Shown here: positions 50,248-56,582 of the stretch, one piece after another
Numbering within the stretch: position 1 is the stretch's first letter
Layout of the letters: the number at the start of each line of letters is the position of its first letter
Assembly (NCBI RefSeq): GCF_008039615.1
Contig: NZ_VDUZ01000001.1
Location: forward strand, 180,834 to 244,833
Origin: Vineibacter terrae
GTDB taxonomy: Bacteria > Pseudomonadota > Alphaproteobacteria > Reyranellales > Reyranellaceae
Direction of reading: 5' to 3'
DNA length: 64,000 nt
Notes under the pieces: model-generated
Database searches by the model: none
The model's input: the letters and a program-made list of their open reading frames with translations, nothing else
Told to the model about the DNA's origin: nothing
Made by a program: the position numbers and the translations under genes

Positions 50248-51705
50248 CTACACGAACACCACGTCGTGGCGCACGTCGAAGGCGGCGGCGACCGCCGCCA
50301 GGCGACGACCGGTGACGTCGCCGAGCAGGTTGCGCAGCGCCGTGGGCACCACCAGCTCGACCAGCTTGTCGGAACGGCGCAGCGCGATCTGCGTCAGCAG
50401 CCCGGGCGCGCCGCCCGAGAGGTTGTAGGCCAGGCGCAGCGCGGTTCCCAGGCGCCGCGCAAAGCGCTGGTCGTCGAGCCCGGTCACTGTCGTGGCCGTC
50501 GCCACGGCGCGGTCCTTGATATTGCTGTCGTAGCGCCACGCCATGGTCAGCGCCAGGGTGGCGCGCTCGCGATGGTCCATGCCCGGCGCCGGCAGCTGCA
50601 GCACCCGTTCGTAGGCCATCACCGCGCGATAGTCGGGATGGTCGTCCCAGCCGATGTCGCTGAGATGGCATGCCGCCAAGCGCAGGATGCGCTCGCTGGT
50701 GCTCTCGCCGGCGAAGATCGGCGTCAGCCAGTCGAAGATCTCGACCGGGGACAGGGTGAAGCGGCGCCAATGCGCCCCTTCGTCCTCCGCGAAGGCGATC
50801 AGCGGATGGCGCGCCTTCTCGGCCTCCGGCAGCTGCGAGTAGTAGAAGCCCTCGCGCAGGCCGAAGGCCGAGAACGCCACCTGCCGCGGCTTCAGCGCGC
50901 CGATCACGCGCTCCAGCGCCAGGGCCGCCAGCGGCAGGCTCTCCAGCCGCCGTTTCGAGACGCCGGTCATCTTCTCCAGCGACTTCAGGCTCTGCCCGGC
51001 GATGATCTGGGCCAGCTCGCGCACCGCCTCGGCCGGCGCCGTGTACTGGTGGATGATGTGCAGCGGATAGTCGGTCTTCTCCATGTACAGACGCGCGAAG
51101 GCGCGCCAGGCGCCGCCCACCGGATAGAATGTGCGGCCGCGGCACTGATCGAGCCAGCTCACGCCCGCGATCGCCTGCTCGACCGCACGCCGCGGGTCGC
51201 GGCCGGCGGTCAGCAGCCGCAACGGGCCGATGGGCAAGGTGGTCGATGGGCCCAGCCGGTCGCCGTTGAGGCTCACAAGCTCCAGGCTGCCACCGCCGAG
51301 GTCTCCCATCACCCCGTCGACGGCCGGAATGCCGCACATGACACCGAGGCCCGAGAGGCGCGCCTCCTCCTCGCCACTGATGATCCGGGTGGTGATGCCG
51401 GTGATCGCCCCGATCCGGCGCACGAAGTCGGCGCCGTCGCTGGCATCGCGCACGGCCGCCGTGGCCAGCAGGTCCAGCCGCGACACCTCCATGTTGCGTG
51501 CCAGCGCCGCGAAGCGCTCGATGTTGGCCAGCGCCATCTCCACGCCGGGCGCGTGCAGGCGCCCGGTCACGTCGAGCTCGCGCGCCAGTCCGCACAGCAC
51601 CTTTTCATTGAAGACGGGCAGCGGCGAGCGGTTGGCTCGCTCGTAGACGACCAGACGAATCGAGTTTGACCCGATGTCGATGATGGCGACGCGCCCGCTC
51701 TGCAT
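50248..51705 (-). CDS. Ppx/GppA family phosphatase
   Basis: A 485-residue exopolyphosphatase or guanosine pentaphosphate phosphatase. The ASKHA-fold motifs are AIIDIGSNSIRLVVYE at the N-terminus and MGDLGGGSLELVSL near residue 135. HIIHQYTAPAEAV lies mid-protein, with an HD-like helical C-terminal region. It would degrade polyphosphate or pppGpp. Polyphosphate kinase is encoded 4 kb away, so both arms of polyphosphate turnover flank the citrate synthase pair. Confidence 0.92.
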   Translation of the reverse strand: MQSGRVAIIDIGSNSIRLVVYERANRSPLPVFNEKVLCGLARELDVTGRLHAPGVEMALANIERFAALARNMEVSRLDLLATAAVRDASDGADFVRRIGAITGITTRIISGEEEARLSGLGVMCGIPAVDGVMGDLGGGSLELVSLNGDRLGPSTTLPIGPLRLLTAGRDPRRAVEQAIAGVSWLDQCRGRTFYPVGGAWRAFARLYMEKTDYPLHIIHQYTAPAEAVRELAQIIAGQSLKSLEKMTGVSKRRLESLPLAALALERVIGALKPRQVAFSAFGLREGFYYSQLPEAEKARHPLIAFAEDEGAHWRRFTLSPVEIFDWLTPIFAGESTSERILRLAACHLSDIGWDDHPDYRAVMAYERVLQLPAPGMDHRERATLALTMAWRYDSNIKDRAVATATTVTGLDDQRFARRLGTALRLAYNLSGGAPGLLTQIALRRSDKLVELVVPTALRNLLGDVTGRRLAAVAAAFDVRHDVVFV

Positions 51706-51870: not shown

Positions 51871-52962
51871 TCATGCAGCCTGTTTCGGCACCGGGCCGAC
51901 ATAGCGCGACAGCGGCCGGATGATGCGCCCGCCCCGCTCCTGCTCGAAGACATGCGCGCACCAGCCGACGGCGCGCCCGACCCCGAACAGCGGCGTGAAC
52001 GCCGCCCGCGGGATGCCGACGGCCTCCAGCGCCAGAGCCGTGTAGAACTCGACGTTGGTATCCAGCCGCCGGCCCGGCTTCAGGCGCCGCAGCGTCGCCA
52101 GGGCCTGGCGCTCGACCTCGGCCGCGAAAGCCAGCCGGCCGGAGGACGGCCCCAGGTCGCGCACCACCTGCTTGAGCACATCGGCGCGCGGATCGCGCAC
52201 CTTGTAGATGCGGTGCCCGAAGCCCATCAGGCGGCTGCCATCGACCACGGCCTGCTCCAGCCACGGCCCGATATTGTCGATGGTGCCGATCTCGTCGAGC
52301 ATATCCAGCACCGGCCCCGGCGCGCCGCCGTGCAGCGGCCCCTTCAACGCGCACAGGCCGCCGATCACCGCCGAGACCAGGCCGGCGCGCGTCGAGGCGA
52401 TCACCCGCGCGGTGAAGGTCGAGGCGTTGAAGCCGTGATCGGCGACGGTCGCGAGATAGACGTCGAGCGCGCGCGCATGGGCCTGCGGCGCCGGCGCGCC
52501 GCGCAGCATGCGCAGCAGGTCGGCGGCGGTGCCCAGCGCCGGATCGGGCGCCACCGGCGCGTCACCCGCGCCATGGCGCAGCAGAGCCGCCAGGAATACC
52601 GGCAAGGCGCCGCAGACCCTGACATGCGCCGGTAGCCGATCCTCGTCCGGCAGCAGCGCCAGCCCGACCCGCAGCGCCTCGATCGGCGTCAGCCTGCCGG
52701 CGACCGACAGCAGCCCCGGCACCAGGGCGAATGCCGCCTGCCGCGCCGCTCCCAGGTCCCGGCGCACCGCCGCGACGTCGCCGCCATCGGCGGTGAACCC
52801 GTCCCACAGCAGGGCGGCCACGTCCTCCAGGCCGCCATGGCGGACAAGATCCTCGATCATCGCGCCGCGCACGATCAGCGTGCCGGCCTCGCCGTCGACA
52901 TGGCTGAGCACGGTCTCACCCGCCATCACGCCATCGAGACCATCATTGTGTCCGATCTTCAT
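51871..52962 (-). CDS. Citrate synthase / methylcitrate synthase homologue
   Basis: A 363-residue enzyme that would condense acetyl- or propionyl-CoA with oxaloacetate. Catalytic His211 (KGPLHGGAP) and His250 (GFGHRIYKVRDPRA) are present. The usual third residue Asp is Glu305 here (NVEFY). GRAVGWCAHVFEQ near the C-terminus is typical. A strong GAGGAGG precedes the ATG. It is divergent from an HTH/citrate-synthase fusion. It is shorter than the roughly 430-residue GltA of the main cycle, so it may be a secondary enzyme. Confidence 0.9.
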   Translation of the reverse strand: MKIGHNDGLDGVMAGETVLSHVDGEAGTLIVRGAMIEDLVRHGGLEDVAALLWDGFTADGGDVAAVRRDLGAARQAAFALVPGLLSVAGRLTPIEALRVGLALLPDEDRLPAHVRVCGALPVFLAALLRHGAGDAPVAPDPALGTAADLLRMLRGAPAPQAHARALDVYLATVADHGFNASTFTARVIASTRAGLVSAVIGGLCALKGPLHGGAPGPVLDMLDEIGTIDNIGPWLEQAVVDGSRLMGFGHRIYKVRDPRADVLKQVVRDLGPSSGRLAFAAEVERQALATLRRLKPGRRLDTNVEFYTALALEAVGIPRAAFTPLFGVGRAVGWCAHVFEQERGGRIIRPLSRYVGPVPKQAA

Positions 52963-53000
52963 CGCGCCCTCCTCGGTTGCCGCATGCAGATCGAGACATG

Positions 53001-53051
53001 ATATTGGTCAATATACTTGTCAATTTTGAATAGATTGATCAATATATTGAT
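53001..53051. promoter_or_regulatory. Operator region between the two citrate synthase genes
   Basis: In an AT-rich 89-base gap, TTGGTCAATATA (53004-53015) and TTGATCAATATA (53035-53046) form a direct repeat with one mismatch, 31 bases apart (about three helical turns). The second lies within the perfect palindrome ATCAATATATTGAT at 53038-53051, which ends at the base before the fusion's ATG. ATATTGGTCAATAT at 53001-53014 is a near-palindrome. TTGACA (minus strand, 53019-53024) could serve as a -35 box for the enzyme gene. Confidence 0.65.
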
Positions 53052-54311
53052 ATGCTAGATCAAGCTTCACTGACGGCGGCCGAAGCTGCTTCCGCGTTGG
53101 GCATCAATCGCCAGACGCTGTACGCCTATGTCAGCCGCGGCCTCATCCGTTCCGAGGAGGGTGCCGGCCGGGGCCGCCGCTACCGCGCCGAGGACATCCG
53201 GCAGCTGGCCGAGCGCAAGGCGCGCGGCCGCGGCGCCGAGGCGGTGGCCGGCCAGGCGCTGCATTTCGGCACGCCGGTGCTCGACTCCAGCCTCACGCTG
53301 ATCGAGGCCGACCGACTACTCTATCGCGGCCAGGACGCCTGCCGGCTGGCCGAGCATGCCAGCCTGGAGCACGTGGCGCGGCTGCTGTGGGACGTGCCTG
53401 CCGATCCCTTCGCCGCCGCCGAGAGCCTGCCGGTGATCGGCTCGGCACTGCGCGCCATCTGGCCCGGCGCCGCGTCCTTCCCGCCGATCGACCGGTGCCT
53501 GGCGATGCTGCCGGTGGCGGCGGCCAGCGACACACGCGCCTTCGCCCGCGATCCCGCCGCCACGGCCGCGACCGGGGCCCGGCTGGTGCGGCTGCTGGCC
53601 GGCGCCATATCGGGCCGGCCCTCCACCGCGGCCCCGGTCCACCGGCAGCTCGCCGAGGCCTGGGGGCTGGACGAGCACGGCGCCGATCTGGCGCGCGCCG
53701 CCTTGGTGCTGAGCGCCGACCATGAGCTCAACGCCTCGACCTTTGCCGTGCGCATCGCGGCGTCGACCGGCGTCACGCCCTGGGGCGCGGTGATCGCGGG
53801 CCTGGCGGTGCTGCAGGGCCCCTATCACGGCGGCATGACACGCCGCGTCAGCGAGCTGTTCAGCAGCCTGCACGATGCCCCCGACCTCGACGCGGCGCTG
53901 GTCGAGCGCGTGCAAAGCGGCGCACGGGTGGCCGGCTTCGGCCACCGCCTCTACCCCGCGGGCGACCTGCGGGCGCGTTTCCTGCTGCAGCGCCTCTATC
54001 ACCGCGTCGGCGATCGCGCCGAGACCCGGCTGGTGCGGCGCATGGTCGAGGCCGGTGCCCGCGTGCTGGGCGAGCCGCCCACGATCGACGTGGCGCTGGT
54101 GGCGATCGAGCGTGCATGCGCCCTGCCCAAGGGCGCCGCGCTGGCCCTCTTCCTGCTGGGCCGTTCGGTAGGCTGGATCGCGCATCTGCTGGAGCAGCGC
54201 GCCAGCACCGACATCATCCGCCCGCGCGCCCGCTACGTCGGAAAGCTGCCGGATGCCCAAATGGGAGCGCCGGCATCCTTGCCGGCACCGGCGCGAAGCG
54301 CCGGATCATGA
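53052..54311 (+). CDS. MerR-like helix-turn-helix fused to a citrate synthase domain
   Basis: A 419-residue protein. Residues 7-60 form a MerR/excisionase-type DNA-binding domain (LTAAEAASALGINRQTLYAY, then GRGRRYRAEDIRQL). Residues about 75-405 are a citrate synthase domain with all three catalytic positions kept: His259 (QGPYHGGM), His298 (GFGHRLY) and Asp346 (PTIDVAL). RSVGWIAHLLEQ matches the partner gene. There is no Shine-Dalgarno; a palindrome abuts the ATG. The last 16 codons come from a dispersed repeat. It may be a metabolite-sensing regulator, an enzyme, or both; similar fusions exist in genomes, but I know of no described function. Confidence 0.88.
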   Translation: MLDQASLTAAEAASALGINRQTLYAYVSRGLIRSEEGAGRGRRYRAEDIRQLAERKARGRGAEAVAGQALHFGTPVLDSSLTLIEADRLLYRGQDACRLAEHASLEHVARLLWDVPADPFAAAESLPVIGSALRAIWPGAASFPPIDRCLAMLPVAAASDTRAFARDPAATAATGARLVRLLAGAISGRPSTAAPVHRQLAEAWGLDEHGADLARAALVLSADHELNASTFAVRIAASTGVTPWGAVIAGLAVLQGPYHGGMTRRVSELFSSLHDAPDLDAALVERVQSGARVAGFGHRLYPAGDLRARFLLQRLYHRVGDRAETRLVRRMVEAGARVLGEPPTIDVALVAIERACALPKGAALALFLLGRSVGWIAHLLEQRASTDIIRPRARYVGKLPDAQMGAPASLPAPARSAGS

Positions 54312-54338: not shown

Positions 54339-56582
54339 TCAAGCCTCGTCGAGGACGAGGCGCGGCACCGCGCCTGATGCAGCCTTGAGCGCGCTGCCGC
54401 GGCCGGAGAGCGACGGGTTGGTCATGAAATAGGTATGGGCGCTGAAGGCGTCGGCCGGCGCGACGCGGCGGGTGTAGCGCCCGTCAGAGGCCAGATCCCA
54501 GGACTGCGCCTCGTCCTTCAGGTTGGCGACCATGATCTGCTCGAGGATCTGCTGGTGCACGGTCGCGTTCTCGATCGGGATCAGGACCTCGACCCGGCGG
54601 TCGAGGTTGCGCGGCATCCAGTCGGCCGACGAGATGAAAACGCTGGCATGCCGCGACGGCAGCCGATAGCCGTTGCCGAAGCACACGATGCGGCAATGCT
54701 CCAGGAAGCGCCCGATGATGCTCTTGACGCGGATGTTGTCACTCAGGCCGGAGACGCCCGGCCGCAGGCAGCAGATGCCGCGCACCACGAGGTCGATCTG
54801 CACGCCGGCCTGCGAGGCGCGATAGAGCGCGTCGATGATCCCGGGATCGACCAGCGAGTTCATCTTGGCCCACAGCGCCGCCGGCTTGCCGGCCCGGGCC
54901 AGGTCGATCTCGCGCTCGATCAGGCGCACCAGCTTGTCGCGCAGCATCACCGGCGAGACCGCGATCTTCTCCATCCGCTCGGGCTGGGCATAGCCGGTCA
55001 TGAAGTTGAACAGCCGCGCCGCGTCGCGGCCCATCGCCGGATCGCAGGTGAAGAACGACACATCGGTGTAGATGCGTGCCGTCACGGGGTGATAGTTGCC
55101 GGTGCCGAAATGCACGTAGGTGCGCGTGCCGCCGCCTTCGCGGCGCACCACCATCGAGACCTTGGCGTGGGTCTTCAGGTCGATGAAGCCGTAGACCACC
55201 TGCACGCCGGCGCGCTCCATGTCCTGGGCCCAGCGGATGTTGGCCTCCTCGTCGAAGCGGGCTTTCAGCTCGACCAGGGCGGTGACCGTCTTGCCGGCCT
55301 CGGCCGCCTCGATCAGCGCCTTGACGATCGGCGAGTCCTTGCTGGTGCGGTACAGCGTCTGCTTGATGGCGATCACGGCCGGATCGCGCGTCGCCTGGCG
55401 CAGGAACTGCACCACCACGTCGAAGCTTTCGTACGGATGGTGCACGACGATGTCCTTGGCGCGGATCGCGGCGAAGGAATCGCCACCGAAGTCGCGGATG
55501 CGCTCGGGGAAACGCGGCTCGTAGGGCCGGAACTTGAGGTCGGGCCGGTCATCGACGATCAGCGCCGACACGTCGCCGATGTTGAGGATGCGGTCGAGCT
55601 CGAACACGTCGACGGCGCCGCCGGTGAGCTCGAGCTGGTCGAACAGGAAGGCGCGCAGCGCCTCCGGCATGTCCGAGTTGACCGAGATCGACACCACCTC
55701 GCCGCGTCGCCGGCGCTTGAGCGCCGACTGGTAGATCTGCACCAGATCCTCGGCCTCCTCGGCGATCTCCACCTCGCTGTCGCGGATGACGCGGAAGCGG
55801 CCGCGATGGACCACGGCATGGCCCGGAAACAGGCGGTCGAGGAAAAGCTGGATCAGCTCCTCCAGCGGCAGGAAGCGGATCGAGGGTCCGGGCAGGCGCA
55901 CGAAGCGGTCGATCTGCGGCGGCAGCGGCAGCAGCGCCATCAGGATGCGCTTGCCCTGCACCCGGCGCAGCTGGAGGATCTCGCAGAAGCCGAGGTTCTG
56001 GATGAACGGGAACGGATGCGCCGGGTCGACGGCCAGCGGCGTCAGCACCGGAAAGACGTGCTCGGTAAAATAGTCGCTGAGCCAGGCGCGCTCGCTCTCG
56101 GTGATCTCGCTGTCGTCGAGCACGGCGATATCGTGCCGACGCAGTTCCTGGCGCAGCGCATCCCAGACGTTCTGCTGCGTGTGCATCAATTCGGTGGCGG
56201 CCGCACGGATCGCGGCGAGTTGCCCGGCTGGCGTCAGCCCATCATCCGATAACAGGTTGGCGCGGGTCGGCAGCATGTCGCGCAGACCCGCGACGCGCAC
56301 CATGTAGAACTCGTCGAGGTTGTTGGCCGAGATCGACAGGAAGCGCACACGCTCCAGCAGCGGATGCCGCGGGTTGCTGGCCTCCTCCAGCACGCGTGTG
56401 TTGAACGCCAGCCATGACAGCTCGCGATTGATGAAGCGGGCCGGTGTGTCGGCGATGGGCGGCGCAGCTGGGACCACCGCGATGGCGCTGTCCTTTGAAA
56501 CCACCTCGACCGCCTGTGACACTGGCGCGTTCACCCTGACCTCGCTTTCACCGCTGTGACCGCGGCGCTTCCGACCGGGCAT
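54339..56582 (-). CDS. ppk1: Polyphosphate kinase 1
   Basis: Makes inorganic polyphosphate reversibly from ATP at the inner membrane. The 747-residue protein has the PPK1 N-terminal domain ([20 protein letters not shown]). Catalytic phospholipase-D-like domains contain [11 protein letters not shown] (autophosphorylated-His region) and [39 protein letters not shown] lies near the C-terminus. The first 45 residues are non-conserved, so a later start is possible. The C-terminus lies just beyond a dispersed repeat. Confidence 0.95.

Follow-up and report, generated by a model that had tools for sequence, protein, structure and literature searches.

The window, by which we mean the whole stretch of 64,000 nucleotides that was analysed, carries a gene encoding a winged helix-turn-helix (HTH) fused to a citrate synthase fold, and this fusion is likely (probability about 0.78) a metabolite-sensing one-component transcription regulator, which probably represses its own gene and also controls the divergent one beside it. 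The domain composition, residue conservation, gene linkage, conservation of an operator-like motif, and exchange of neighbouring genes were shown by sequence comparison; DNA binding, the ligand, the sign of control, and the dimer geometry are inferred. The genome is 8.76 Mb in size and falls among Reyranella-like Alphaproteobacteria, with Reyranella sp. CPCC 100927 (88% identity) as the closest named relative. The features of the divergent pair are listed in Table 1.

Table 1 Features of the divergent gene pair and the gap between its genes (positions in the window).
Feature	Position	Strand	Details
citA-type citrate synthase, partner	51871..52962	-	363 aa; Glu in place of the catalytic Asp (TNVEF)
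Three direct 12-nt repeats with imperfect inverted repeats	53001-53012, 53013-53024, 53032-53043		within 53001..53043
Operator-like core TCAAT-T-TTGA-ATAGATTG-ATCAAT	53020..53043	+	begins 32 bp ahead of the fusion ATG and 58 bp away from the start of citA
HTH-citrate synthase fusion, putative regulator	53052..54311	+	419 aa; HTH_17/MerR_1 and Citrate_synt (Pfam)
Winged helix-turn-helix, MerR/BldC/excisionase type	53070..53219	+	residues 7-56; recognition helix about 20-28
Citrate synthase fold domain	53268..54227	+	residues 73-392; putative role in ligand sensing and dimerisation

The only Pfam families above cut-off in the fusion were HTH_17/MerR_1 and Citrate_synt, with HTH_17 matching residues 7-56 (E 2e-9), MerR_1 residues 8-53 (E 3e-6, 27.7 bits against a cut-off of 21.6), and Citrate_synt residues 73-392 (E 2e-52). 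No curated citrate synthase model scored above its cut-off for the fusion, the best NCBIfam model reaching 139 bits against the 421 required. The catalytic residues His259, His298, and Asp346 are all present, and Pro302 occupies the position of pig Arg324, where a basic residue is absent. By its above-cut-off Citrate_synt match and its fold match, the fusion belongs to the citrate synthase superfamily at the level of fold. Its N-terminal winged HTH is of the MerR type, which BldC and excisionases match about equally well.

The divergent partner was assigned to the Citrate_synt family (E 1e-97) and scored above the cut-off of NCBIfam PRK12350. Its best match in the PDB was 2c6x (Bacillus subtilis CitA), followed by a group of further structures among which is Mycobacterium tuberculosis CitA. 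Glu replaces the usual catalytic Asp in its TNVEF motif, as in both of these CitA proteins, and this motif together with the homology places the partner in the CitA subfamily. The original prediction had described a stand-alone citrate synthase homologue on the minus strand facing a gene with an HTH (residues 7-60) ahead of a complete citrate synthase fold with three catalytic residues; the gene positions, this architecture, and the nature of the partner, here of CitA type, all held.

A full-length AlphaFold2 model of the fusion, built from seven input sequences only, was of middling confidence (pLDDT 72, pTM 0.71). A Foldseek search with this model retrieved citrate and methylcitrate synthases (E 2e-11). 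The HTH modelled alone (pLDDT 79) contained helices at residues 9-16, 20-28, and 46-68 and strands at 34-36 and 42-45, and its nearest PDB folds included SoxR, BldC, Xis, and CarH (Z 7-7.6), a predicted similarity that names the general class only. No long coiled-coil dimerisation helix was evident in the full-length model, in which the linker at residues 59-91 was of low confidence (pLDDT below 50). The idea that dimerisation through the citrate synthase fold replaces the usual coiled coil, also part of the original prediction, is plausible but unproven, and the dimer geometry is inferred.

Residue conservation was assessed in 114 fusions, which were collected by similarity to the window fusion and by alignment from near the N-terminus, a selection that would have excluded any HTH-less relatives. 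The recognition helix (TLYAYVSRG) was near-invariant, few other parts of the protein being conserved to this degree, and Y24, S28, R29, and Y44 were identical in all 114 members. Equivalents of pig His238, His274, Arg329, Arg401, and Arg421 were likewise found in 114 of 114, and the oxaloacetate/citrate-binding residues were invariant across the set. Pig Arg324 of citrate synthase contacts the CoA phosphate; its equivalent was Pro in 97 of the 114 fusions. The His320 equivalent was lost in five members, two of which had also lost Asp375, and in all five the DNA-binding helix and the arginines that bind carboxylate are retained. Judged from sequence alone, this pattern would fit selection for di- or tricarboxylate binding with catalysis optional. 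Since most fusions have lost the position that binds CoA, acyl-CoA is a weaker ligand candidate than oxaloacetate, citrate, or methylcitrate, which refines the earlier list of oxaloacetate, acyl-CoA, and citrate by disfavouring acyl-CoA and adding methylcitrate; the ligand itself is inferred. It should be noted that all catalytic residues are intact in the window fusion, which may thus retain some activity, and enzymatic activity is not excluded in the family at large, most members of which keep the same three residues.

The two members lacking both His320 and Asp375 are paralogues in one genus (L150 and L151, from genomes G934 and G1023) that keep the HTH and the carboxylate-binding arginines despite the lost catalytic residues. 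They lie divergent from a luciferase-like monooxygenase gene, identified by sequence reading only, and have a variant motif, TCAATCTTGATAAACATGATCA.

The AT-rich core in the gap between the two genes, TCAATTTTGAATAGATTGATCAAT, was the sole match to the strict pattern in the whole genome. A relaxed pattern yielded one further site, which lies on contig 46 and has a shorter spacer, and no larger regulon was found by motif search of this genome. In an alignment of the gaps, the family consensus TCAATnTTGATn7ATCAA was present ahead of the fusion start codon at 83 of 86 fusion loci, where presence required matches at 12 or more of the 15 fixed positions and the background was 33% A+T. The half-sites are inverted, and the internal layout of the motif hardly departs from 23 bp, with the distance to the fusion ATG ranging from 15 to 84 bp (most commonly 32 or 24 bp). 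Exact matches occurred in 55 of 66 fusion-bearing genomes, nearly always once, in the same orientation, and at the fusion promoter; the reversed pattern, used as a control, matched once in the 66 genomes. A single strict match in 8.76 Mb together with conservation at 83 of 86 related loci places the motif far beyond chance. The original prediction had pointed to repeats in the shared gap as a possible operator. The repeats were confirmed, and motif conservation bears out the operator prediction: the pattern is what a dedicated local operator would look like, an inference made without binding data. Scanning the gap for a consensus sigma-70 promoter found none, and no MerR-type promoter spacer of 19-20 bp could be shown around the operator-like motif, which leaves the gap without a recognised promoter.

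Within the order, 68 of 76 genomes carry the fusion, with very few exceptions as a single copy, and it was found in about 43 of 385 sampled Alphaproteobacteria, as counted from the match list. The family spans the Alpha-, Beta-, and Gammaproteobacteria, with matches in named Agrobacterium, Azospirillum, Chelatococcus, Roseomonas, Burkholderia, Paraburkholderia, and Comamonas plasmids, and with ATU_RS25370 as the fusion of Agrobacterium fabrum; the weaker plasmid matches were counted without individual confirmation of the HTH. Most of these proteins are named "citrate synthase family protein" in RefSeq. The class search of the 385 Alphaproteobacteria revealed no HTH-less relative beyond an apparent loss of the HTH in genome G222, which was rejected, as the contig ends there.

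A full-length citrate synthase gene lies divergently upstream in 69 of the 86 aligned fusion loci, across a gap of mostly 75-100 bp. One of these partners (L062/L122) is GltA and the rest are CitA-like. All aligned partners have Lys or Arg at the position of pig Arg324, and 68 of the 69 have Glu at the catalytic Asp position, the single Asp-bearing partner being probably the GltA-type gene. In the class sample, a CitA orthologue (E up to 1e-75) occurred in 34 of 385 genomes, 31 of which also carry the fusion (Fisher p 1.7e-32 for 31/12/3/339, a value inflated by genome relatedness). Thirty of these 31 pairs are adjacent and divergent, and the remaining pair is split by contig ends. The three genomes with CitA only belong to one genus with a more distant CitA. 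This genus, the sole partner-only genus in the sample, is represented by L184 (G108, family f35), a more distant CitA-like synthase (42%) that is accompanied by neither the fusion nor the motif. Random loss of the HTH, or a partner not conserved beside the fusion, had been named as outcomes that would refute the original prediction. The HTH is present in the complete homologues examined and is not randomly lost; the expectation of a conserved partner held with one qualification, in that the partner is conserved beside the fusion in most fusion-bearing Alphaproteobacteria and is not universal.

Where CitA is missing, the fusion faces prpB-prpC-acnD-prpF, gltA, a family III CoA-transferase gene, or other genes. 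Methylcitrate-cycle genes face it in five Lysobacterales-like genomes: prpB, prpC, and prpF scored above curated NCBIfam cut-offs at L110, as did prpB and prpC at L114; aconitase-family genes occupy the position of acnD at L110 and L115; and prpB-like and PrpC genes stand beside the fusion at L111 and L112. GltA is the facing gene at L122, and a family III CoA-transferase in Burkholderia-like genomes, G627, and Comamonas antarctica. The motif is kept at the prp, GltA, and CoA-transferase loci (C. antarctica lay outside the motif search), and its orientation before the fusion gene is unchanged even where the partner has been exchanged. Exchange of neighbours with a retained motif fits a sensor better than an enzyme. 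A few fusions have neither CitA nor a clear motif, e.g., L085/L119 in an acetic-acid-bacteria-like genome. Separately, a second, diverged fusion (about 39-40%) on contig 3 of G748 (L118/L190) lies downstream of an apparent transporter gene, and the motif is about 2.9 kb upstream of it, beside a possible hydroxyacid dehydrogenase gene.

The phylogenetic tree placed the citrate synthase domains of the fusions in a single clade (support 100/100), apart from CitA (100/99), PrpC, and GltA. The simplest reading is that the fusion is old and likely arose once. The separate clade of its citrate synthase domain led to rejection of the idea that the fusion began as a recent copy of its neighbouring partner gene.

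We propose that the citrate synthase fold of the fusion is no longer mainly an enzyme and would serve as dimeriser and sensor. A dimer of this fold would put two MerR/BldC-type winged HTHs on the operator, where they would bind TCAATnTTGATn7ATCAA in the divergent gap. The old active site may bind oxaloacetate and/or citrate, or 2-methylcitrate in the prp-linked branch. Citrate synthases undergo domain closure, and closure driven by the ligand would alter the spacing of the two HTHs and hence DNA binding. The predicted outcome is autorepression together with control of the divergent citA, most likely as repression released by the ligand; autorepression is expected because the operator-like motif, some 9-32 bp ahead of the ATG of the fusion, covers the presumed start region of this gene. 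An activator role is possible. The near-invariant recognition helix and the near-invariant adjacent motif, travelling together across the Proteobacteria, support the regulator reading. They also support, with the refinements given above, the original inference that metabolite binding alters DNA binding and controls the partner, in which DNA binding and ligand response are inferred. A bolder reading, which, taken as a whole, we favour by a narrow margin, is that a whole family of one-component regulators uses the citrate synthase fold as its sensor, remains catalytic in some lineages, senses the oxaloacetate or (methyl)citrate consumed or made by the synthase it controls, and has been transferred to citA, gltA, prp, and CoA-transferase genes together with an operator that hardly changed.

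The principle of joining an HTH to an enzyme fold is already known, and a small number of enzyme-derived regulators, built on an aminotransferase, biotin ligase, or proline dehydrogenase, have been recognised. Regulators of the MocR/GabR type likewise combine an HTH with a whole enzyme fold as sensor and dimeriser and lie beside the enzyme genes they control. However, they join a GntR HTH to a PLP aminotransferase fold, whereas the fusion has a MerR/BldC-like HTH and a citrate synthase fold; it lacks the GntR-type HTH and aminotransferase domain that define this group, and the likeness is in principle only. The N-terminal winged HTH is shared with the MerR family (SoxR, CueR, BmrR, CarH), but the effector part of the fusion is a citrate synthase fold without an evident long coiled-coil helix. 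In B. subtilis, the minor citrate synthase CitA is likewise divergent from its own regulator, CitR, which is of the LysR type and unrelated to the fusion. In Escherichia coli and Salmonella, the sigma54 activator PrpR is divergent from prpBC and senses 2-methylcitrate. The fusion occupies the place of PrpR in Lysobacterales-like genomes, yet it is an entirely different protein, in which the citrate synthase fold would sense methylcitrate. No description of an HTH-citrate synthase regulator was found in the open-licence literature searched.

Caulobacter crescentus has two citrate synthase homologues besides CitA, CitB and CitC, with consecutive locus tags (CCNA_03757/03758) (PMC7083601). Loss of gltA in E. 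coli is complemented by CitB, which shows 37% identity with CitA of B. subtilis, but not by CitC (PMC7083601). From this layout and the reported identities, CitB is likely the partner and CitC the fusion, which, without the Caulobacter gene sequence, is no more than a lead. No recognisable Caulobacter emerged from the families of genomes G653 and G799, and a PopZ search of 80 genomes, a weak test, returned no close match. A functional and a non-complementing neighbour are what would be expected of a CitA/fusion pair. The text of PMC7083601 makes no mention of a helix-turn-helix.

The fusion might be a bifunctional trigger enzyme, i.e., a DNA-binding protein that still functions as a citrate or methylcitrate synthase and, through its catalytic state (product or closed form), signals flux to the promoter of citA. 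The retention of His259, His298, and Asp346 in the window fusion, and of the catalytic residues in nearly all others, speaks for this. However, 97 of 114 members have Pro at the Arg/Lys position for the CoA phosphate, two members lack both His320 and Asp375 and three more lack His320, all with the DNA-binding helix and arginines intact, and CitC, if it is the fusion as seems likely, failed to complement gltA. We therefore regard the trigger enzyme as unlikely. A plain second citrate synthase, whose HTH has no regulatory consequence and serves, e.g., localisation or assembly, has in its favour the annotation in public records as "citrate synthase family protein". It is all but excluded by the highly conserved recognition helix and by a motif that is conserved with this helix, near-unique per genome, located at the fusion promoter, and retained while neighbours were exchanged.

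It is also conceivable that the fusion does not bind the motif, which would then be recognised by a different regulator or act in the leader as a structural or translation signal. The motif stands directly ahead of the fusion start codon and could serve translation or the promoter. However, it can stand anywhere from 15 to 84 bp ahead of the ATG and yet hardly changes in internal geometry. Outside this position the genome has next to no copies, which would be expected of a local regulator and not of a general signal. This alternative is very unlikely, and the fusion as a sensing regulator remains the preferred reading.

If the regulator reading is true, a widespread proteobacterial family gains a function missed by current annotation, a candidate operator is at hand for nearly every member, and the methylcitrate (propionate) operon of Lysobacterales-like bacteria gains a predicted regulator. 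Citrate synthase is the entry enzyme of the TCA cycle, and here a metabolic enzyme would have become a switch that acts on its own pathway, which would open to test how the induced-fit domain closure of an enzyme can become a DNA-binding switch. The fusion would also be a natural biosensor part for oxaloacetate, citrate, or methylcitrate.

The divergent pair is flanked by minus-strand genes at 50248-51705 and 54339-56582 that, named by eye, resemble ppx (exopolyphosphatase) and ppk (polyphosphate kinase), and such flanks recur in relatives of the genus and a sister genus. Elsewhere in the same genome, L005 and L006 match citrate synthase only in a C-terminal half and are perhaps citryl-CoA-lyase-like, and GltA (L001) and PrpC (L002) are also present.
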